A stretch of DNA of 26,188 nt from positions 1 through 26,188 of IMG/VR virus record IMGVR_UViG_3300027969_000384; one strand, written 5' to 3'. The notes under the pieces are model-generated. The model worked only from the letters and a program-made list of their open reading frames with translations, had not been told where the DNA came from and did no database searches. Origin of the DNA: a virus. A program made the translations under genes and the position numbers. Shown here one piece after another: positions 2,431 through 24,428 of the stretch; position 1 is the stretch's first letter; each line of letters starts with the position of its first letter.

Positions 2431-2661
2431 CTAGCCACCAAAGTGTTTGATCACAGCATCCAGGTGGTGAATCATGATTTCGTTTCCGCTCACATCTTCA
2501 GGATGCAACCAGTATCCGTCAGGATTGGCGTCAGTCCGGGGATTTTTCTTCCACTCCGAGAGTTCTTTCTTGAGATAGTTTCTCTGCTCTTTAAGAGACA
2601 GCACAGTGATCCGATCGGCTGCTTCACCGTCTAGTGTGATGGGACCAATTCTTTTGCTCAT
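2431..2661 (-). CDS. Hypothetical phage protein, 76 aa
   Basis: 76 aa; ATG at 2661 overlaps the ligase stop as ATGA and is preceded by AGGAG. A short strand region is followed by a charged helix (LKEQRNYLKKELSEWKK) and a second helix near the end (IMIHHLDAVIKHF). No known motif. It is probably co-translated with the DNA ligase; whether it is a partner of that enzyme is unknown. Confidence 0.75.
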   Translation of the reverse strand: MSKRIGPITLDGEAADRITVLSLKEQRNYLKKELSEWKKNPRTDANPDGYWLHPEDVSGNEIMIHHLDAVIKHFGG

Positions 2662-4040
2662 AGTTTATCTCCTGCTTCAAATCCACGGAATCTCACAAAT
2701 CTTGGGAACCTCAAACTGTAGGTTCCGTCTTGGTTTTGGGTGACTGCGTCAGCTTCGACTTCAACCACATGATCAAGCAATGTATCGCGTGAATTCCAAT
2801 ACCGCTGGCGATCATCGTCGCTAAAACCGCTACCAACATTGACTCTGATGTTTCGTTCATTGTCTACTCCTTCACAGATTATAGCACCCAAGCGGTCCGC
2901 ATTGCGACCAGTTCCTTGTTCAAACCCCACAATATTGAGATCAACTGTTATGGTGGGCTTCCATTTCATCCAAAAGTCTGACCGCTTGCACTCGTAAGGG
3001 GCATCCAGATTCTTGATCATGATGCCTTCGAATCCGTTCTTCACAGCGTCTTGGGCATAACGATTCATCTGATCATGCCCTTCGGCTGTGTCCAGATCCA
3101 CTTCATGCCCTGACATCACACGCAAACAATCAGTCTTGTCAAATCTGTTTCGTAGATTCTCCACCCACTTCAAGCGGAGGTGTTGGCGGGTATTACAATG
3201 CCCTTCTTTGAACTCATTCAACGGAATCAGATCAAACACATGATATACCATGCCTTCGGTTTGGGCATCGTTTTTGCGGTGTGCTTGACGCATGAGTTTC
3301 TGGAAACTCTCTCCCACGATCTCACCATCCAAGACCACACCACCCGGTCCCATGCCGCCCTTGACCGTGCCGTTGGCCACATTCATTAAAGCATCTGCGA
3401 TCTGTGGAAAGTTAGCAAACTCTTTGCCATTGCGGCTATACAAGGTCACGCTGATAGGAGTGACCACTGCCAACACACGCACGCCATCCAGTTTGACTTC
3501 CAGGCGTTTGATGCCTTTCATCTTGGCCGGACGATCTGTTGAGTCCTGTGCCAACTGGCATGAGAACACTGGAATGCGATATTGTGTTCGGCCCAACACC
3601 TTGTTCAGGGTCTTGTCTGTTATGCCACAGCGGAGGTCTTTGCGGATCACTGGCACACATACCAAGTTCCACTCATCGCTGTCGAACTCTTCGCTGATGC
3701 TCTTTATGAGATCTCTGGCTGCATGGCCACTAGTGCTGCGAGTGCGTAGTGCTTCCAACAGACCCCAGAATCGTGGCCACGGATTGGCACGACCTGTGAG
3801 TCCAGCGGTCTCAGGCAGTTGCTTCACATGGAAGGTATGGAAGGGATTGTAGGCTTGGTAGCAGTTGAACAAAAAAGCCTGTGCATCGGCACTGCCAAGT
3901 TTCGCAGCCATCAAGGCTTTTTCAATAACCTTTTCCTTGTGGAGGCGGCTGTCGGACTCGGCCAGTTCCGTTATCCAGCCAGACGACATGGTGCCCTCAT
4001 AGCGTGGATCATCAATGTCGTATGTGAATTCATTTGTCAT
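2658..4040 (-). CDS. ATP-dependent DNA ligase
   Basis: 460 aa, close to T4 gp30 (487 aa). It seals nicks in duplex DNA during replication and repair through a lysyl-AMP intermediate. Nucleotidyltransferase motifs run in order: motif I KLDGVR with the adenylated Lys at 183, YSRNGKEF at 202-209, LDGEIV near 237-242, motif IV EGIMIK at 338-343, and motif V around WMKWKP at 357-362, followed by an OB-fold-like C-terminus. The N-terminal 170 residues form the helical DNA-binding domain of phage and LigB-type ligases (CVPVIRKDLRCGI). A GGAAG site precedes the start. The small gene after it overlaps by ATGA. Confidence 0.95.
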   Translation of the reverse strand: MTNEFTYDIDDPRYEGTMSSGWITELAESDSRLHKEKVIEKALMAAKLGSADAQAFLFNCYQAYNPFHTFHVKQLPETAGLTGRANPWPRFWGLLEALRTRSTSGHAARDLIKSISEEFDSDEWNLVCVPVIRKDLRCGITDKTLNKVLGRTQYRIPVFSCQLAQDSTDRPAKMKGIKRLEVKLDGVRVLAVVTPISVTLYSRNGKEFANFPQIADALMNVANGTVKGGMGPGGVVLDGEIVGESFQKLMRQAHRKNDAQTEGMVYHVFDLIPLNEFKEGHCNTRQHLRLKWVENLRNRFDKTDCLRVMSGHEVDLDTAEGHDQMNRYAQDAVKNGFEGIMIKNLDAPYECKRSDFWMKWKPTITVDLNIVGFEQGTGRNADRLGAIICEGVDNERNIRVNVGSGFSDDDRQRYWNSRDTLLDHVVEVEADAVTQNQDGTYSLRFPRFVRFRGFEAGDKL

Positions 4041-10360: not shown

Positions 10361-10606
10361 TTAATCTCCGTATCCGCCGGCGGTTTCTTCAATGTATTTT
10401 CTCAGTTCTGTGAATCCGCCAACGTGATTGTTGTTCACAAAAATCTGTGGTACTGCTCTTGCTGTGGGCACTGCTGCCAACAGGTCTTCTCGGGTGTATC
10501 CATGCCCGATTTTCTTTTCTTCGTATGCGATGTTGCGTTGCTCTAATAGAGCTTTGGCTTGGTCGCAGAAGGTACAGTTGTCTTTGCTCCAGACTATGGC
10601 TTTCAT
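10361..10606 (-). CDS. nrdC: Glutaredoxin (NrdC-like)
   Basis: 81 aa thiol-disulfide oxidoreductase that would re-reduce the phage ribonucleotide reductase. Active-site C11-T-F-C14, the cis-Pro motif VPQIF near 52-56 and a GG-F-EL glutathione-site motif (GGFTELRKYI) are all present, so it is a dithiol glutaredoxin and not a CGFS Fe-S type. Length is typical of T4 NrdC-like proteins. The gene follows nrdB by 11 nt with AAGGA upstream, in line with co-expression. Confidence 0.92.
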   Translation of the reverse strand: MKAIVWSKDNCTFCDQAKALLEQRNIAYEEKKIGHGYTREDLLAAVPTARAVPQIFVNNNHVGGFTELRKYIEETAGGYGD

Positions 10607-10617
10607 TTTGTTTTTCC

Positions 10618-11721
10618 TTATAGATTGGGTAGTTGGTCGTAATCGAGACTTTCGCTCATCACGCCAATAACATAGTTAGTTGATTCGTTCTCTTGCAGTG
10701 CAGTTTGTTTCTTCGAAGTATCTGAATGCTTGTTGAACCATGGAATGGGTGTGTTTCTGGGTGCAGGAGATTGATACTTGATACCGATATCTTTAAGTGC
10801 TCCTACTGCTGTGTAATCCACAAAGTCTTTGAGAATATTGGCATTGAGACCAATCACCGGTCCTCGGTTAAACAAATAGTCCGCCCAGTCTTTTTCTTCT
10901 CGTATCACATCCATGTATAACTCGTATACCTCGGCTTCACATTCTGCTTTGGCTTCTGCGAAGCGCGGATCTTCTTTGATCACTTGGTTGATCATAAACG
11001 CTGTCCATTCTTTGTGCAACAGTTCATCCTGCAGGATCAAACTGATGATGTTACCATTACCGATGAAGATTTTGTTCTCCACCATGGCCAGGCTTGTGGC
11101 AAACGATACCATAAAACGGAATGCCTCTAGTGCGTAACTTGCGTGTAGTGCCATCCAAATTGCCCGGATGTGACTTTTTTCATTTACTGTTTTAGGATTG
11201 ATCTCTTTGAAGCAATTGAGTTCGTGCAGTTTATCATAGTAGTTGCCCACCGAACTTGCCATGTCAACGATCTCTTGTGTGTCGTGAATGGTGTTGAACA
11301 CTTCTTTGGGCACATTGTAAATATTGCGGATGATATGACTGTAACTGCGGCTATGGATGTTGGTCTCAAAGAAACTCCAGTTATACATCAAGGCTTCCAG
11401 TTCAGGCAGGCTCACACAGGGTGTGAATACCTGTGCTGGACCACGACCTTGTAAACTATCCAAGGCTGTTTGCCGCAATAGGTTTGAGGTGAAGATATGC
11501 TTCACAGCATCACTTGCATCTTTGAAGTCGTTGGCATCTTTGCTGAGACTAATCTCTTCAGGTACCCAAAAGAACCCACGAGCGGTCTGTTCGATCTTTT
11601 GTATCTTGTTGTATTTGACTTCTTCGAATCGTTGGATGGTAACTGGGCCCTCGGGGTCCAAGAACATCTTGCGATTGAGATAGTCTGTTTTTGTTGTTAG
11701 GTTGTATTGTGCTTTTGACAT
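10618..11721 (-). CDS. nrdB: Ribonucleotide reductase small subunit (class Ia, NrdB)
   Basis: 367 aa, as E. coli and T4 NrdB (about 375-390). It carries the diiron-tyrosyl radical that drives dNTP synthesis with NrdA. Visible ligands and radical Tyr: Asp88 (TALDSLQGR), Glu119 and His123 (ETNIHSRSY), Tyr127, Glu199 (LEAFRFMV), Glu233 and His236 (QDELLHKEW). Other spacings equal E. coli NrdB, but Glu119-His123 has one residue more than the E-x-x-H of E. coli and T4. The C-terminus (SLDYDQLPNL) is the usual NrdA-binding tail. The ribosome binding site is weak; translation probably follows from the small gene 1 nt upstream. Confidence 0.95.
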   Translation of the reverse strand: MSKAQYNLTTKTDYLNRKMFLDPEGPVTIQRFEEVKYNKIQKIEQTARGFFWVPEEISLSKDANDFKDASDAVKHIFTSNLLRQTALDSLQGRGPAQVFTPCVSLPELEALMYNWSFFETNIHSRSYSHIIRNIYNVPKEVFNTIHDTQEIVDMASSVGNYYDKLHELNCFKEINPKTVNEKSHIRAIWMALHASYALEAFRFMVSFATSLAMVENKIFIGNGNIISLILQDELLHKEWTAFMINQVIKEDPRFAEAKAECEAEVYELYMDVIREEKDWADYLFNRGPVIGLNANILKDFVDYTAVGALKDIGIKYQSPAPRNTPIPWFNKHSDTSKKQTALQENESTNYVIGVMSESLDYDQLPNL

Positions 11722-12043: not shown

Positions 12044-14359
12044 CTAAAGTTTGCATGCTTCGCAGTCTTCTGCATCATCAAAATCAATGGGCATGAGTGG
12101 TGCATCTTCTGCCACCTCTTTGCTACCTTGCTTGTTGATCAGGCTATAGTAAAAAGTTTTCAATCCCCACACATGCGATTGCATGAGGTTCTTGGCTATC
12201 AGTGTGGTAGGTACTTTGCGATCTGCAAAGTGTGCAGGGTTGTAGAATGTGTTGGTTGAAATACTTTGATCCACATATGCTGCGATCACTGCTGCGGTTT
12301 TGAGATAGCCTTCACAGTCCTTTTGTTCCCACATCATCTGATACTTGTTTTTCAATTTGTGATATTCAGGAACCACTTGCACAAAACTTCCTGCTTTGCT
12401 TTCTTTCACACTGATCAGACTCATTGGCATTTCAATACCATTGGTTGAGTTGATCACCACTGAACTGGATTCCACCGGTGCTACTGCCATCTGTGTAGCA
12501 TTACGCACACCATGAGTTTTCATGTTGGTGCGTAGTGTTTCCCAATCCAGTTCGGGAGAAAAGTCAGTGAGTTCATTCACGCCCTTGGCTCGCAATTCCC
12601 AAGGAAATACTCCTTTGCCGTAGCGTGTGTGTTCGCTGCCTAAACATGCGCCGCGTTCTTGTGCCAATTCCACTGACGCTTCGGTGAGATAGAAAGCCAT
12701 GTGTTCCATCCAAGATTTGATCTCAGCTAGAGCATCCTTCTCCCCGTAACGCAGGCCTCTCTTGGCGTGCCAGTAGGCAAGGTTTGTGATGCCGATGCCG
12801 AGTGGTCGGATCTCGTCGTTGGACAGTTTTGATTGGATGGATAAGAAGTCTTGGTAATCAAGAATGTTATTGAGACTGCGGTGCAGAATGCGGGCAGCAC
12901 GGCGAATATCTTCTGGATTACGGAAGGCTCCCCAGTTGAGACTTCCCAATGTGCAAAGTGCGATGCGACCATCAGTATCATCCAGCCGCTTAAAGGAACG
13001 AGTAGGTAAAAGTATTTCACAGCAAAGGTTACTCTGGTAGATGGTGTGATATTCCGGATCAAACGGTCCTTGGTCCATCACATTGTCGATGAACACTAGA
13101 TATATACGTCCAGTGTCTGTTCGTTCTTTGAGAATACCACTCTTGAAAACTTCTTCCGCAGCCATCGTCTTCTTACGCAGGCCTTTCTGCTTTTCATATT
13201 TGCAGTAAAGTTCTTCAAACAGTGCAGTATTTTTATAAAATGCTTCATATAAGTCAGGAACCTCGTTAGGGTCAAAGAATGTTATGTTTTCTTTGTTCTT
13301 GAAACGCCGCCAGAAAAATGCGGATAGAACCACACCATAATCCATGTGTCGAACACGGGTTTCTTCTGTGCCTTGATTGTTCTTGAGAACAATAAGATCA
13401 TCAAACTGATGATGCCAAATAGGATAAAAAACAGTAGCACTTGCATTGCGGATACCTCCTTGTGAGCACGAGCGTAAGTCACCGAACCACTTCTTCAAAA
13501 AAGGTATCATGCCGGTATGCATGATTTCTCCACCACGGATAGGCGATCCTAATGGCCGCAACCTGCCAATCTCAAGACCAATGCCGGCACGCTTGCTGGC
13601 ATACTTGGCCATCATTTCTCCCGAGGCAAAAATGCTATCCAAGTCATCATCACTACGGATAAGAACGCAAGAACTGAATTGCTTGGTAGGTGTTCCCAAT
13701 CCAGCCAACACAGGGGTAGCGAGTGTAAACAGACCATCACTGGCTGCATTGTAGTATTCCTTGATATACCGCATCCTGGCTGTGTTGGGCTCTTCCTTAT
13801 GGAACACTGTGGCCGCTGCAACCATGTAACGAACTTGAGGTGTTTCATATGTTTCCTTAGTAGCACGATTTTTAACAAGATATTTTTCAATCAACTGCTC
13901 AATAGCAGCATAACTGAGATTTTCATCCTTGTCATGATCGATCATGTCCTGCATGCGATTCCAGTCGTCCTCGCTGTACCACTCTAACAGTTCAGGAGTA
14001 TAAAGACCCGTGGCCACATTCTTCTTAACTATATCATAAAGGTGAGGAGGATCGTAACTGCCATATACGTCTTTGCGTAGCATTGATAGGCGTTGTTTGC
14101 CGGCCACGTATTGGTAGTTGGTATGTCCTACATCAGGATTAGATTCTACATCAATGAGATCCACAATGGCTCTGAGTGTGATACCATCAATCTCCTTGGT
14201 TGTGATTCCATCGTAGAAATGCATCTGTGCTTTGATCTCTACCATGCTTTGACTTACGTCTGCTATACCTGAACATACCTTGGCAATCTGTGTCTGCCAT
14301 TTTTCCAATGCCAACGGTTCTTTCTGACCGTTTCTTTTGATAACTGTGATTTGTGTCAT
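12044..14359 (-). CDS. nrdA: Ribonucleotide reductase large subunit (class Ia, NrdA)
   Basis: 771 aa, typical for class Ia (E. coli 761). It reduces ribonucleoside diphosphates to deoxy forms. The N-terminal ATP-cone allosteric domain is present (VIKRNGQKEPLALEKW). Active-site residues: Cys231 (FSSCVLI), Asn444, Cys446 and Glu448 (NLCCEI), and Cys469 (ALCTLGSLNWG). The radical-transfer Tyr pair (TFYYS) and the redox-active C-terminal CEAC pair (Cys766, Cys769) are also visible. It forms an operon with the 103-aa gene, nrdB and glutaredoxin. The ribosome binding site is weak (GAGCAGAA), 6 nt after the upstream stop. All catalytic residues are intact. Confidence 0.97.
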   Translation of the reverse strand: MTQITVIKRNGQKEPLALEKWQTQIAKVCSGIADVSQSMVEIKAQMHFYDGITTKEIDGITLRAIVDLIDVESNPDVGHTNYQYVAGKQRLSMLRKDVYGSYDPPHLYDIVKKNVATGLYTPELLEWYSEDDWNRMQDMIDHDKDENLSYAAIEQLIEKYLVKNRATKETYETPQVRYMVAAATVFHKEEPNTARMRYIKEYYNAASDGLFTLATPVLAGLGTPTKQFSSCVLIRSDDDLDSIFASGEMMAKYASKRAGIGLEIGRLRPLGSPIRGGEIMHTGMIPFLKKWFGDLRSCSQGGIRNASATVFYPIWHHQFDDLIVLKNNQGTEETRVRHMDYGVVLSAFFWRRFKNKENITFFDPNEVPDLYEAFYKNTALFEELYCKYEKQKGLRKKTMAAEEVFKSGILKERTDTGRIYLVFIDNVMDQGPFDPEYHTIYQSNLCCEILLPTRSFKRLDDTDGRIALCTLGSLNWGAFRNPEDIRRAARILHRSLNNILDYQDFLSIQSKLSNDEIRPLGIGITNLAYWHAKRGLRYGEKDALAEIKSWMEHMAFYLTEASVELAQERGACLGSEHTRYGKGVFPWELRAKGVNELTDFSPELDWETLRTNMKTHGVRNATQMAVAPVESSSVVINSTNGIEMPMSLISVKESKAGSFVQVVPEYHKLKNKYQMMWEQKDCEGYLKTAAVIAAYVDQSISTNTFYNPAHFADRKVPTTLIAKNLMQSHVWGLKTFYYSLINKQGSKEVAEDAPLMPIDFDDAEDCEACKL

Positions 14360-14365
14360 TTCTGC

Positions 14366-14785
14366 TCAATATAGTTGTTGTTTTACTTCGCTTTGCGCGA
14401 TGTGATGTTTGCTTTGTTGGAGGTTGGTATTTAAGCCAAGGTCTCGCCCCCAATTCAATATATATTTTCCGCCTTGAACTTGGACTAAATTGCCCTGTTC
14501 GGTTTCCACTAGCACAGCATCTTGTATATCATCGCGATCCAGCACAGTGATAGTATACAGGATTCCTAGCCCGCGAGCAAGATCACAATAGATATTGTCG
14601 CTCAAAAGTTGCCAGGGATCAGGCCAATCTTGCCGATCGTCCCAGTGCAGATGATATGCACGCCACGGGGTTTGTTGCCACCAGGTATTGATTTCTGTCA
14701 AGGCATCGGGTGTAGGGAGATCTCGAACACGATCGCGCAATGCTGTCCACGCCGCTAGGCGTTGTTCAAAGGTTGAACACCACAT
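14366..14785 (-). CDS. Conserved-type phage protein, 139 aa
   Basis: 139 aa; the ATG at 14785 overlaps the tail-spike stop as ATGA, so the longer frame upstream is not used. Trp-rich (INTWWQQTPWRAYHLHWDDRQ), followed by DPWQLLSDNIYCDLARGLGILYTI and a beta-like C-terminal part. The WPDPWQLLSDNIYC..AR.LGILYT segment is like a conserved protein adjacent to structural genes in T4-like aquatic phages, as I recall. Function unknown; possibly a tail-assembly helper. Confidence 0.75.
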   Translation of the reverse strand: MWCSTFEQRLAAWTALRDRVRDLPTPDALTEINTWWQQTPWRAYHLHWDDRQDWPDPWQLLSDNIYCDLARGLGILYTITVLDRDDIQDAVLVETEQGNLVQVQGGKYILNWGRDLGLNTNLQQSKHHIAQSEVKQQLY

Positions 14786-17148: not shown

Positions 17149-17472
17149 TTAAACTCTAAAACTTTCTCCACATCCGCAGCGATCGCGCTCGTTAGGATTA
17201 GAGAATTCGAATCCTTCGTTAAGCCCTTGGCGCACATAGTCCACGGTCATACCTGAAAGATATACTTCGTGTCGTTTGTCCACTATCACAGAGAAACCTG
17301 GTTGAGCATAGTTTATTGTGGTATCGTCGGTAGTGTGTTGATCAACGTATTCTAACACATAAGCCAGTCCAGAGCAACCTGTAGTTTTCACTGCCAGTCG
17401 AATACCCACGCCACCGCGTTTCTCTAGTAGTCGTTGGATTTTGATTCGAGCAGTGTCAGTTAACGAGATCAT
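17149..17472 (-). CDS. iscA: A-type Fe-S carrier (IscA/ErpA/HesB family)
   Basis: 107 aa, the family's standard length. A-type carriers hold and pass on Fe-S clusters from the IscU scaffold. The three ligand Cys are present: Cys33 (TGCSGLAY), Cys99 and Cys101 (RCGCGESF), with the FEFSNPN segment before them. IscA, ErpA and HesB cannot be told apart by eye, so the symbol is a family name. Its ATG lies 17 nt inside the end of iscU, a tight overlap implying coupled translation. Confidence 0.92.
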   Translation of the reverse strand: MISLTDTARIKIQRLLEKRGGVGIRLAVKTTGCSGLAYVLEYVDQHTTDDTTINYAQPGFSVIVDKRHEVYLSGMTVDYVRQGLNEGFEFSNPNERDRCGCGESFRV

Positions 17473-17842
17473 GCCTGTTACGGTAATCTGCTACTGCGGC
17501 TTTGATAGCGTCTTCAGCAAGGATGCTACAATGGATTTTGACTGGTGGCAGCGCGAGTTCTTGAGCAATCTCTGAATTTTTAAGAGCTGCGGCTTCGTCC
17601 AACGACCTACCTTTAACCCACTCGGTAACGAGACTACTCGAGGCAATAGCACTGCCGCATCCGTAGGTTTTAAATCTTGCGTCTGTGATGATGCCATCTT
17701 TTACCTTGATCTGAAGTTTCATTACATCACCGCATGCAGGTGCTCCTACCATACCGGTTCCAACATCGTCATCGTCCTTGGCGAAGGATCCTACGTTGCG
17801 TGGGTTTTCATAATGATCAACTACTTTGTCTGAATATGCCAT
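17456..17842 (-). CDS. iscU: Fe-S cluster scaffold IscU
   Basis: 128 aa, full length for IscU. It is the scaffold on which IscS and iron build a [2Fe-2S] cluster. Conserved residues are intact: Cys37 and Asp39 (PACGDV), Cys62 (YGCGSAIASSS), and His104-Cys105 (IHCSILAEDAIKAA). The LPPVK motif (98-102) bound by the HscA chaperone is also intact, so it should work with the host HscA/HscB machinery. No iscS is in the window. A sigma70-type promoter sits directly upstream, and AAGGA lies 7 nt before the ATG. Confidence 0.95.
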   Translation of the reverse strand: MAYSDKVVDHYENPRNVGSFAKDDDDVGTGMVGAPACGDVMKLQIKVKDGIITDARFKTYGCGSAIASSSLVTEWVKGRSLDEAAALKNSEIAQELALPPVKIHCSILAEDAIKAAVADYRNRHDLVN

Positions 17843-20843: not shown

Positions 20844-22823
20844 CTAGTTGTTTCTGGCTTTATTTCTAGCAGTGAAGTCAAATCTATTCACTGCTTTGCC
20901 ATAGCCTGCAGGGGTAGCAAACACCCATCCTTCATTGCCCGGTACTTGTGCATCTAACTTGCCCAGCAGATCCAGTTTCAAATCATGCAGCAATTCAAAC
21001 AATAAGAACGCAGCGGCTAGCCCTTGTTCGTTTGAGGTGGGGCTACGCAAATACTGCGCTATGTTGCTGACCTTTTGTTGTGTTTGTGTCTGTTGCAACC
21101 AGGACATGAACCCAGGCACTAGGTCACGGAAATCACCTGTGTACGCAGCATGTCTTGGATCCACACGCTTGTTGATGTAATCTATAGCCAACTTAGCCAA
21201 GTCGGTGATCTTCATGGCTCGTAATTCCATGGGATTGAACAATGTGTCTATGGCTGCTCGATTCTGGCGCAGCAGTGTTCGGATCTTTTTTGCTATGTCG
21301 TTGTTCTTGGGCACAGATTGAGCATAGATCGGTTCAATCAAAAGCAATCCTGCTACAGGATTAAATCTCACGCCGCTGAGTGGTTGCTTTTCTGCATCTG
21401 CATCCGCATACATAGTATGTACTGCTACGCCAACTTCACTGTTGGCTATTTTTTTTCCTAGATCACTGGCCACCGGAATACGATATGTCACAGTGTTGGG
21501 TCTAAATACCAAGTTTCCAGCAGACTTATAAACTGCACCAGACACAATTTCTGCTTCTGTTGCTGGCAACGGGTCATCGGTTTTGGTCCAGTACACTAGA
21601 TCACCCTTGACATACCCACGGAAATTTTCGGGTGTGGCTGCTTCTAAATATGGCCAGATAGTTTCGTATGTAGGCAATAGGGTTTCAATTCTATCGGCTT
21701 TATTACCTTTAGCAGCAGCATTGGCATCTCTTCGAGCCATGTCTGTAGCAACCTCATCGGTACTGGTAAACAATCTTTCCGCAGTGAATCCTGCATCATC
21801 TGTGAGCACAAACTCACCGGTTTCGGGTTTACGACCAAACACCACAGCAGGTTTACCATCCCATTTCACCGAACCTGTCTTGGGATCAGCATAAAATCCA
21901 TCAGCTATTTGCAGTGCTCGATCTACTCCTGCTGATCCACTACGGAATATGTAATCTTCCAAGTGCTCAATGCCCTTGGCTTTGCCGCCCACAGCCACAG
22001 GTTCTTGTTCGTACAGTTGATATGATCGCTTGGTTTCGATCAAGGGTTGCATGCCTTGATTCACAATGCGATCGCGCAAGCGAGCCAGAAAGTTGGCATC
22101 ACTTTCACGCACGGTCATTTCGGGCTCTCGAATACCTTCGCTGGCTAGATACTCACGGAAGTCTTTTACTTTGGACTCGCGATCAGGATCATTGCTGAGT
22201 GCAGCATAGATTGATTCTACATTCTTTAAGTTGTCACGAGTGGCACCGCGACCTAACAATACACTGGCCACATAGTCAGGATCTAATCCGCCACGAACCA
22301 ATTCATTTGTAGTTCGAGAGAACATGCCGTTAGCACCAACTTTTAGCCCTTGTTGTTTGGCTATGCTCGACATTAATACATTTCGATTCATGCCTTTGTA
22401 TTCTGAGTCCTCGCCACCACTGTAATAAAACCCGCCCCAGTCTAGGTTAGGAAAGAACATAAAGTCAGTCTGCACAAATCCACGATTGGCATCGCCGGCG
22501 ATAGGAGTGCGTAGATGTACTTCGCCCCGCTTGCTCACATATTCTCTAGGATCCAAGCCTTGGCTTTGCACAAATTGTGTAAGTATACCGGCTAGTTGGT
22601 CTTTGCTTACTTCATTGAGATCCACAGCGAGATCCAAGTCGCCAGATGAGGGTTTCTTGCCCGTGGACCCTAACCAACGCTCCTGGGGGAATTCTATGCC
22701 GGTTACTTGTTCTATCCAACGTATAGTGGCAGGAATATCTTGACGATTGATTCGTTGTGTGAGCGACTCACCATCTTTGGTTTTGAATACGTTTCCGCCT
22801 TCTAGCAGTTTATTGATTTGCAT
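20844..22823 (-). CDS. Two-domain protein: nucleotidyltransferase-like plus KxDG-containing domain
   Basis: 659 aa. The N-terminal domain has a polymerase-beta-type nucleotidyltransferase signature: G52-S53 (GSTGKKPSSGDLDLAVD) with Asp62 and Asp64, and a third acidic residue at Asp120 (VQTDFMFF). The second half contains VKWDGKPAVVFGR (Lys320, Asp322, Gly323), which resembles the KxDG motif I of ATP-dependent ligases, followed by a FVLTDDAGF segment and FRGYVKGDLVYW. The last 150 residues are helical. Such proteins occur in T4-like aquatic phages, sometimes called structural. The first domain is well supported; ligase-like activity is inference. It overlaps the previous gene by 14 nt. It may modify a nucleic acid or protein, or be a virion-packaged enzyme. 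Confidence 0.75.
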   Translation of the reverse strand: MQINKLLEGGNVFKTKDGESLTQRINRQDIPATIRWIEQVTGIEFPQERWLGSTGKKPSSGDLDLAVDLNEVSKDQLAGILTQFVQSQGLDPREYVSKRGEVHLRTPIAGDANRGFVQTDFMFFPNLDWGGFYYSGGEDSEYKGMNRNVLMSSIAKQQGLKVGANGMFSRTTNELVRGGLDPDYVASVLLGRGATRDNLKNVESIYAALSNDPDRESKVKDFREYLASEGIREPEMTVRESDANFLARLRDRIVNQGMQPLIETKRSYQLYEQEPVAVGGKAKGIEHLEDYIFRSGSAGVDRALQIADGFYADPKTGSVKWDGKPAVVFGRKPETGEFVLTDDAGFTAERLFTSTDEVATDMARRDANAAAKGNKADRIETLLPTYETIWPYLEAATPENFRGYVKGDLVYWTKTDDPLPATEAEIVSGAVYKSAGNLVFRPNTVTYRIPVASDLGKKIANSEVGVAVHTMYADADAEKQPLSGVRFNPVAGLLLIEPIYAQSVPKNNDIAKKIRTLLRQNRAAIDTLFNPMELRAMKITDLAKLAIDYINKRVDPRHAAYTGDFRDLVPGFMSWLQQTQTQQKVSNIAQYLRSPTSNEQGLAAAFLLFELLHDLKLDLLGKLDAQVPGNEGWVFATPAGYGKAVNRFDFTARNKARNN

Positions 22824-23058
22824 GACTACGCCTTACGGTTCTAGCAAATCTGCCTGCATCCCGGGTACGGATTGCATTCAGCAGTTTGCGTGTGAGATTC
22901 TCTGCTTGCTCCGGTGAATATGAAGCATCTATCTGTTCTAACAAGTTGATGGCACCAGCAATGATATTCGAGGCGCGGCTTTCTATTATCAAGTCACGTT
23001 CACGCTCGATATACATAGAATCTAATTCTTCCAACAGACTACGGGTGCGTTTTTGCAT
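22810..23058 (-). CDS. Small helical conserved-type phage protein
   Basis: 82 aa from the ATG at 23058 (a TTG at 23067 is 3 codons upstream). AAAGG lies 12 nt before the ATG. Charged helices throughout (KRTRSLLEELDSMYIERERDLIIESRASNIIAGAINLLEQI...AENLTRKLLNAIRTRD). It resembles a small conserved protein seen beside structural genes in T4-like aquatic phages. Function unknown. Its last codons overlap the start of the 659-aa gene. Confidence 0.75.
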   Translation of the reverse strand: MQKRTRSLLEELDSMYIERERDLIIESRASNIIAGAINLLEQIDASYSPEQAENLTRKLLNAIRTRDAGRFARTVRRSHANQ

Positions 23059-23079
23059 TGTGTTCAAGGGCCTTTGAGT

Positions 23080-23087
23080 TATTTATT
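23080..23087 (-). promoter_or_regulatory. Late promoter AATAAATA
   Basis: One mismatch to T4 TATAAATA. It is 21 nt before the ATG of the 82-aa gene, in the short gap after the SGNH-like gene, and would drive it and the 659-aa gene. Confidence 0.6.
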
Positions 23088-23104: not shown

Positions 23105-23809
23105 TCAAAAGTTTATCCTGGACATGGTGTTCCAGATTTCTTCACGATCGGGATCATACGCAGTCCATTTGTGATTGCAAATGCGATTATGTAATTCTTT
23201 AGAAAGTACTGGATTTATTTCTATTCCGGCAGCCGGCATGATCGATTCGACTAACCATCGATAATGCAGCAACGGCAGTGGTTGTATTTCGGTCCCTCTG
23301 CAATCTAAATTGGCTGCAAATTTATCTTGCTCATCGTTACTGGTATCAATGTATCTAGCATTTTGTTGTAAAACATATGCGGATATCAGTTTTTTTTGTA
23401 TTTGTTGTCTCTGCAAAGATTGATCGGGCTGTATGTAAAAATTATGATATGTTTTGATAGCATCCTGCTCACTGGCACTACTACACCACCATAATCCGTT
23501 GTTGGTTTTATAAGTGTTACAATGATATACCAAATCGGATTTTACAATATCTGCCCACTGATTATCTTGTATGAGTTTATCAAATCGTTGGTGGTTCGGC
23601 CACTGAAAAATCACTGTGGAATATTCAATGTTATGAGCAAGCAGTTCGTTGATCAAGAATTCGTGGCCTGCGCCAACTGCACTTATCACAGTCACGTCGA
23701 GATCGGGCCTTAGTGCTTGTAAGATTTGTGGCCATTCGGGCCATATGTGCCCATGAGCATAACCATCCCCAAGACAAAATACCTTAGTAGTATCTGTAGT
23801 ATCTTCCAT
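23105..23809 (-). CDS. SGNH-like protein with altered nucleophile motif
   Basis: 234 aa from the ATG at 23809; the frame upstream opens with a TTG inside the previous gene. The start (VFCLGDGYAHGHIWPEW) has the position and shape of SGNH block I, but the Ser is Gly (GDG). Further segments fit the same fold: VGAGHEF, VIFQWPNHQRFD and a final PLLHYRWLVESIMPAAGI, where a His usually lies. If so it would be catalytically dead or use another residue. It overlaps the previous gene by 26 nt and shares its AT-rich composition. Fold call is by pattern, moderate confidence. Confidence 0.6.
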   Translation of the reverse strand: MEDTTDTTKVFCLGDGYAHGHIWPEWPQILQALRPDLDVTVISAVGAGHEFLINELLAHNIEYSTVIFQWPNHQRFDKLIQDNQWADIVKSDLVYHCNTYKTNNGLWWCSSASEQDAIKTYHNFYIQPDQSLQRQQIQKKLISAYVLQQNARYIDTSNDEQDKFAANLDCRGTEIQPLPLLHYRWLVESIMPAAGIEINPVLSKELHNRICNHKWTAYDPDREEIWNTMSRINF

Positions 23810-24428
23810 GTGCCAGTTCAAATTCTGCTTCGTGATATCTTTTTACCAAACTGTTATTCCACAGATTTGGATCATATAAAAAAGAATTTAAACTTTTCCA
23901 TCGATCCATGTGTTTTTTAATTTCTGTCCCGGCCACTAGATCATAAAATTCTGTTGTAGTTTCTACAATGTCTGACAACTCTAAATTTTGATATTGTGGG
24001 ATAGCACCAAATGCTTGTATGTAGTTTTTTGCAGTCTCTCTTTGTTTGTCAATGAGTTCTATATCAGTTAGGTGTCTGATATGATCTTGTTTAGAAAAAT
24101 ATAGATTCCATGCCCTGAGCCATCGATAAATTTTGCTCCTAGTGGTTTCTGTTGTTATTAGAATAACTTGATCGCACATCGAAAGGTCCGCGCTGCCTGG
24201 CCAACAATGTGTTCCAATGACTTTATTATGATCTTTAGACTCTGTTAAAAAACGACTAAATTTAGATTGATCAAAGTTTGTAAAAATTGATTCCGAGTCA
24301 CCAATTTTTCCATAATAATGACTTATTGACGCAATCCCGCCATCTTCATACACAGGAGAAAACTTGTTTTCTAAAATGTCACATAGTAATCCGCCGGCGG
24401 CATAATGTGGGAAACACAATAATTTCAT
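23784..24428 (-). CDS. Sulfotransferase-like candidate
   Basis: 214 aa; ATG overlaps the helicase stop as TAATG. The start (KLLCFPHYAAGGLLCDILE) has the strand-Gly-Gly-helix shape of a nucleotide-binding loop as in sulfotransferases, and VIGTHCWP...VILITTETTRSKIYRWLRAWNLYF recalls the second PAPS-binding segment of that fold. The match is weak and I recognise no named family with certainty. The DNA here is visibly AT-richer than the helicase gene. It pairs with the following SGNH-like gene, and the two may act together on a surface molecule or glycan. Confidence 0.55.
   Translation of the reverse strand: MKLLCFPHYAAGGLLCDILENKFSPVYEDGGIASISHYYGKIGDSESIFTNFDQSKFSRFLTESKDHNKVIGTHCWPGSADLSMCDQVILITTETTRSKIYRWLRAWNLYFSKQDHIRHLTDIELIDKQRETAKNYIQAFGAIPQYQNLELSDIVETTTEFYDLVAGTEIKKHMDRWKSLNSFLYDPNLWNNSLVKRYHEAEFELAHGRYYRYY

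Follow-up and report, generated by a model that had tools for sequence, protein, structure and literature searches.

A T4-type phage gene joining a predicted family X polymerase to a DUF6267 ligase-fold domain, with prohead-protease-like sites in its leader and linker

A single gene of an environmental phage of the T4 type encodes a protein in which a predicted minimal family X polymerase (PolX) is joined to a ligase-fold domain of the DUF6267 family, and both the short leader before the first domain and the linker before the second carry an [LI]xE pattern resembling the cleavage sites of T4-type prohead proteases. The window is the whole stretch of 26,188 nt analyzed here (positions 1 to 26,188 of IMG/VR record IMGVR_UViG_3300027969_000384), and the features of the gene and its surroundings are listed in Table 1. 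Computation established the classes of fold, the conservation of the motifs and the pattern of cleavage sites. We lean toward the reading that the product is a head-packaged, protease-split polymerase-ligase pair that repairs gaps or nicks after injection, its likeliest target being the incoming phage DNA.

Table 1. Features of the fusion gene and its operon (positions in the window; / marks a proposed cut)
Feature	Position	Strand	Basis
659-aa PolX-like/DUF6267 ligase-fold fusion gene	20844..22823	-	single ORF, ATG start
Proposed capsid-targeting propeptide: leader MQINKLLE, residues 1-8, putative cut LLE/GG	22800..22823	-	leader pattern, disorder
Palm and thumb domain resembling family X polymerases, residues ~9-236 (14-203 in the fold match)	22116..22799	-	hhalign and VIA-align
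GS motif, residues 52-53	22665..22670	-	motif position
D62-x-D64 metal-binding motif in SSGDLDLAV	22632..22640	-	invariant, 36 relatives
D120, third catalytic Asp (QTDF)	22464..22466	-	invariant, 36 relatives; aligns with PolX QVDLRV Asp
Putative interdomain protease site 1, LIE, residues 261-263	22035..22043	-	linker pattern
Putative interdomain protease site 2, LYE, residues 270-272	22008..22016	-	linker pattern; 251-276 pLDDT <50
DUF6267 domain (PF19782), ligase-superfamily fold, residues 277-659	20847..21995	-	Pfam and model
Motif I K320-W-D-G (predicted adenylated Lys)	21855..21866	-	K, D, G invariant
Motif III-like G407-D408 (RGYVKGDLVY)	21600..21605	-	invariant
Insert separating motifs III and IV, all helical (residues ~508-626)	20946..21302	-	model secondary structure
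Motif IV E631-G-W-V	20922..20933	-	E, G, V invariant
Motif V-like K643-A-V-N-R647	20883..20897	-	K, R invariant
Small upstream gene, phrog_11854 (listed virion structural)	22810..23067	-	same operon, overlaps fusion start; conserved neighbor
T4-type late promoter box ATAAATA	23080..23086	-	TAAATA conserved in relatives

The fusion gene and its relatives

The AlphaFold2 model of the whole fusion protein has a mean pLDDT of 87. The residues on which the initial annotation based a two-domain call lie where it placed them: the GS...DxD...D triad comprises GST from residue 52, DLD at 62-64 and D120 inside QTDF (118-121), and in the second half KWDG occupies 320-323, with VVFGR from 327. Both calls, a Pol-beta-type nucleotidyltransferase and a KxDG-containing domain of ligase fold, have held up, the former being more precisely PolX, and fold searches with the predicted structures led to Pol beta/lambda for the N-half and to polynucleotide ligases for the C-half. 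These whole-domain matches imply that in the model D62, D64 and D120 cluster and Lys320 lies in a pocket.

In an initial scan, 413 relatives came up among viral contigs. Eighty IMG/VR loci were retained; they are 66-100% identical and mostly encode the full-length fused protein, and broader searches found both halves in 189 ORFs, some of these loci overlapping on the same contig. No record in the public phage collection spans 80% of the fusion protein; there the C-half was matched in cyanophage, Methylophilales phage and Stenotrophomonas phage records, and the N-half in two jumbo phages, Sinorhizobium phage Phosso and Agrobacterium phage Atu_ph07. Pfam, PHROGs and NCBIfam returned DUF6267/phrog_455 and noise, apart from one weak thumb match, and neither the full protein nor the N-domain profile found a useful match when the PDB was searched by sequence only.

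The N-half resembles a minimal family X polymerase

As a single sequence the N-half matched no family, and single-sequence Pfam scans of its relatives gave one thumb match only (0.0079). When 36 N-domain relatives were aligned, G52, S60-G61-D62, D64 and D120 were invariant, and comparison of this alignment by hhalign with the palm-thumb region of bacterial PolX genes (retrieved with the Pfam thumb model) gave a score of 46.1 and an E-value of 3.2e-6, which refers to one comparison at low Neff. All motifs are collinear with those of bacterial PolX (GS..SGDLDLAV vs GS..TVGDLDILV), and further collinear segments pair QTDFMFFPNLDWGGFYYSGG with QVDLRVIEPEAWGAALLYFTGS and RNVLMSSIAKQQGLKVGANGMF with HNIVLRKLAQELGLKLNEYGLF. 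The highest score against 60 column-shuffled PolX profiles was 18.9. CCA/poly(A) enzymes, at 15.0 vs 46.1 for PolX, were rejected as the family of the N-half, as was RlaP, whose score of 17.2 lies within the shuffled controls and whose Pfam model (PF10127) matches none of the 36 members.

The structural comparisons agree with this. VIA-align superimposes model residues 14-203 on the palm and thumb of Pol beta/lambda with Z 9.9 and an rmsd of 3.4 Å over 160 residues, and the top Foldseek rows are PolX, including African swine fever virus (ASFV) PolX (5hrb, TMt 0.52), at E-values that are weak (best 2.6e-3). Only about 13 residues precede the matched region, and the 8-kDa lyase domain is absent; that domain is found in cellular PolX and not in ASFV PolX, so that it is not universal for the family. 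Because the PolX score exceeds those of CCA, RlaP and the shuffled controls, we assign the N-half as a divergent minimal family X polymerase of palm and thumb, with catalysis predicted. A pattern scan of the genome collection found no cellular relative of the N-domain.

The C-half is a DUF6267 domain of ligase fold

The Pfam DUF6267 model matches the protein with 91.9 bits against a gathering cut-off of 27 (E 1e-26 for the domain alone), and the C-half also falls in PHROG 455 (phrog_455); the literature that we searched does not mention DUF6267. In alignments of 51 and 56 homologs K320, D322, G323, G407, D408, E631, G632, V634, K643 and R647 are invariant, and their succession is that of ligase motifs I, III, IV and V, with GD in place of GE in motif III and KxVxR as motif V. 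G407-D408, E631-G632-V634, K643 and R647 thus add further ligase-superfamily motifs to the KWDG reported previously.

Modeled alone, the C-half has a pLDDT of 92. Polynucleotide ligases fill all of its best 50 VIA rows (Z 8.3 to 6.2), with Naegleria RNA ligase (Z 8.3), REL1, T4 Rnl2 and human DNA ligase 1 at the top. Since Foldseek gave weak E-values (best 0.019), we base the ligase assignment on motifs and fold pointing the same way; hhalign of DUF6267 against three single ligase sequences was not significant. Together they support the C-half as a ligase-fold enzyme of predicted activity. A helical insert of ~120 residues parts motifs III and IV, and no C-terminal OB domain is recognizable in the model, in which 12 mostly disordered residues follow motif V. 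A T4-type DNA ligase is also encoded in the window (2658-4040), so the DUF6267 domain is not the phage's only ligase.

A protease-site pattern in leader and linker

The gp21 protease of T4 cuts after L/I-X-E (PMC9026906). Among the relatives, which are not phylogenetically independent, [LI]xE before GG ends 41 of the 42 distinct leaders of fused proteins; these leaders are 4-9 residues long, with Glu always at P1, Leu or Ile at P3 in 41 and eleven different residues at P2. As a base rate, of the 342 genes predicted in two related phages, 12 have [LI]xE[AGS] within the first 16 residues, and in Stenotrophomonas phage DLP6 the DUF6267 gene and the neighboring cytidylyltransferase gene are two of the five genes that have it. 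The linker tells the same story, subject to the same dependence among relatives: [LI]xE is present in 86 of 86 distinct interdomain linkers (96 of 96 with a wider pattern) and in all 13 linker clusters, vs 2.8 expected on shuffling, and most of the longer linkers have two such sites. In the model, pLDDT falls below 50 (disordered) at residues 1-8, 237-244, 251-276 and 652-659.

The standalone N-domain relatives of Phosso and Atu_ph07 start with MGG, which corresponds to the position right after LLE in the fused protein. Proteins consisting of DUF6267 alone mostly have longer leaders, such as MKSFQTFLNE/A, MKKFSTYLAE/A and MNRFAQYISE/A, that resemble the T4 internal-protein signal; seven of them have no leader. 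The [L/I]xE pattern of leader and linker, as read from these sequences, is a new observation here, and we infer from it that the protein is targeted to the head and processed by the prohead protease, which would separate the two enzymes.

We also note that the gp21-type proteases of Phosso and Atu_ph07 (L239:1432-2061 and L240:1426-2055) have LLE/GGGLN and VVE/GGGLN near their own N-termini, possible self-cleavage sites that look like LLE/GGN of the fused protein. The DUF6267 proteins of Melnitz EXVC039M and DLP6 bear leaders, and two further Melnitz proteins (L086:4887-5972 and L254:5855-6523) have T4-like ones, MQGFKTFLSE/A and, before a P-loop domain, MKTFAELQE/G, and are candidates for other packaged proteins.

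Late expression and genome context

The initial annotation had the gene expressed from a late-type promoter, and conservation bears this out. The ATAAATA box lies just before the phrog_11854 gene and not directly before the fusion gene, and within the window alone such boxes are not above chance (4 found vs 3.1 expected); however, all 98 distinct relatives have TAAATA upstream of the phrog_11854 gene, compared with 2.6% of random stretches, so late expression is well supported.

The operon sits downstream of a DnaB-type helicase gene. Between the two lies a gene (23105-23821) with an SGNH-hydrolase-like start (CLGDGYAHG), whose place is taken by other genes in some relatives. The window also has IscA- and IscU-like genes (17149-17842), and the 87% identity of the IscU-like protein to proteins of Rhodoferax, Acidovorax and other Comamonadaceae suggests, from sequence likeness, a Burkholderiales host.

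Indications of virion packaging

Virion delivery had been raised as a possibility, together with a check of the virion proteomes of relatives. The gp21-type sites at the N-terminus and in the linker give it strong indirect support. The cytidylyltransferase adjoining DUF6267 has been detected in virions of cyanophages S-SM1, S-CREM2 and S-SZBM1 (PMC3037559; PMC10665884; PMC9146016), and that of S-SZBM1 has the leader MRFRQFIIE/A; the DUF6267 protein of the same phage, S-SZBM1_141, has no leader and is absent from its virion list. The numbers are small, and the direction of this contrast agrees with packaging of leader-bearing proteins.

A gp21-type protease and the major capsid protein gp23 were found in five of five isolates checked, and the gp23 pro-sequence region has an invariant LxE in four aligned sequences. 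In the 21 fragmentary contigs that carry the fused gene we found no gp21 (S77) protease, and T4-type gp23 is present in two of them only and as pieces. In one of the two (L268:14291-15833; G014:74291-75833) the major capsid gene is seemingly interrupted by a repeated element: the gp23 frame stops after GVQPMT and enters one of several small ORFs with LRWS/LKWS-like tails, which occur also at 10365-10670 and 14291-14602.

A proposed function and its alternatives

We infer the packaging, cleavage, enzymatic activity and substrate of the pair as follows. The first eight residues of the late-expressed precursor would act as a T4-type capsid-targeting propeptide and carry it into the prohead core, where a gp21-type protease would cut after [L/I]xE, at LLE8/GG and at one or both linker sites (LIE263 and LYE272), to free the minimal family X polymerase and the ligase-fold enzyme of the DUF6267 family. 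Both may then be packaged and, along with the genome, injected into a new host, where the polymerase would fill a short gap or add a few nucleotides, and the ligase half, adenylated on Lys320, would seal the nick, most probably in incoming phage DNA. The T4-type DNA ligase that the phage also encodes and the seven leaderless proteins of DUF6267 alone count against this reading.

The same packaged and cleaved pair might act on RNA instead, restoring and resealing tRNA or other RNA that anticodon nucleases of the host have cut early in infection, a role proposed for RlaP-Rnl pairs. The lack of an OB domain in the ligase half, together with best structural matches to the RNA ligases of Naegleria, trypanosomes (REL1) and T4 (Rnl2) (Z 8.3 to 6.9), counts against the DNA reading and keeps RNA repair in play as an unlikely but serious contender; the partner gene in Atu_ph07 is moreover named RNA ligase in UniProt, with a weak match to Pfam RNA_ligase, and jumbo-phage RNA repair joins Pol-beta nucleotidyltransferases with RNA ligases (PMC7824862). 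Yet DNA ligases score only slightly lower in structure (Z 6.9), the nucleotidyltransferase is PolX-like and not RlaP- or CCA-like, and no kinase or phosphatase partner was recognized next to the fusion gene. DNA also fits better with packaging alongside the genome, and it is this, with the PolX type of the polymerase, that makes us favor DNA repair; as a substrate, DNA is at least as likely as RNA.

Two other readings dispense with either packaging or nucleic-acid repair. The failure to find gp21 in the 21 fragmentary contigs with the fused gene, which also tells against DNA repair by a packaged pair, speaks for an enzyme that stays unpackaged and works late on replicating or to-be-packaged DNA, its motifs having nothing to do with gp21, as does closeness to the DnaB-type helicase gene. 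We think this improbable: leader length and the middle position of the motif vary freely, yet L/I and E are kept in 41 of 42 leaders, the same motif is kept across linkers of very different sequence, the standalone relatives begin exactly at the proposed cut and the leader-bearing neighbor protein is present in virions. The second reading has the protein injected as an effector to nucleotidylate proteins of the host or small molecules, like T4 Alt acting on RNA polymerase. It could borrow some credit from the packaging of Alt, itself a modifying enzyme, by T4 and from the linkage of cyanophage DUF6267 to an NMNAT-like protein and not to a polymerase; with all ligase motifs kept, including IV and V, and a second, polymerase-type domain with its thumb attached, it seems very improbable.

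Returning to the packaged pair, a broader proposal can be made, which we offer tentatively and would rate at somewhat under even chances. A phage polyprotein would be cut in the prohead into polymerase and ligase, a gap-filling and sealing kit that every virion injects, and the ligases that T4-type phages widely deliver in their virions would include the DUF6267 family, whose partner would be PolX in one lineage and, in cyanophages, an NMNAT-like enzyme. DUF6267 is common in aquatic phages of the T4 type but unannotated, and it here gains a fold and a likely role, and family X polymerases are indicated in abundant phages; if the proposal is true, a capsid protease can free two repair enzymes from one precursor within the head.

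Comparison with known systems

The closest precedent of the fusion is PgVPolX of Phaeocystis globosa virus, a PolX fused to an NAD+-dependent DNA ligase, for which gap repair by such a fusion has been described (PMC5537341). Both proteins combine in one chain a family X polymerase at the N-terminus with a ligase at the C-terminus, suited to short gap filling and then sealing. PgVPolX, at 1093 aa, has an 8-kDa lyase domain, and its ligase is of the LigA type, whereas the phage protein has a minimal palm and thumb, a DUF6267 ligase-fold domain and putative protease sites, and the phage fusion looks as if it arose independently. The pairing of two nucleotide-transfer domains stands as the initial annotation described it, though it has precedents in PgVPolX and in the jumbo-phage RlaP that accompanies RNA ligases. 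The latter is alike in that a Pol-beta superfamily enzyme is associated with a ligase (PMC7824862), and differs in that the similarity of the N-half profile to RlaP is not above shuffled controls. ASFV PolX shares the minimal palm-thumb architecture with no separate lyase domain, but its gene is separate from that of its ligase and its identity to the N-half is very low (10%).

In its short L/I-x-E N-terminal leader, late expression and predicted prohead entry and injection, the protein is like the T4 internal proteins and Alt (PMC9026906; PMC9958956). Those include no polymerase-ligase pair, and the phage protein, whose packaging is predicted, differs by the proposed internal cut that would give two enzymes from one precursor.

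By its C-half the protein belongs to the cyanophage DUF6267/phrog_455 family (T4-GC 71) and shares its invariant residues. In cyanophages, the members consist of a single domain or are joined to an HxGH cytidylyltransferase-like domain (S-PM2 A0A0M6VVW4), not to PolX. Simple replacement of the cyanophage cytidylyltransferase by PolX was rejected, since a CTP_transf_like protein is also encoded on contigs that carry the fused gene; it is of another type (GGFDP.HSGH), lies elsewhere and has no leader.

The N-domain accompanies a ligase-like partner in two ways: it is fused to DUF6267 here, and in Phosso and Atu_ph07 its gene lies next to a different ligase-like gene. In these two phages (L082:3806-6501 and L083:4043-6591) an RNA-ligase-like gene, a leaderless PolX-like gene and a third conserved gene are clustered, and the ligase-like partner in Atu_ph07, named RNA ligase in UniProt, is a weak structural match to DUF6267.
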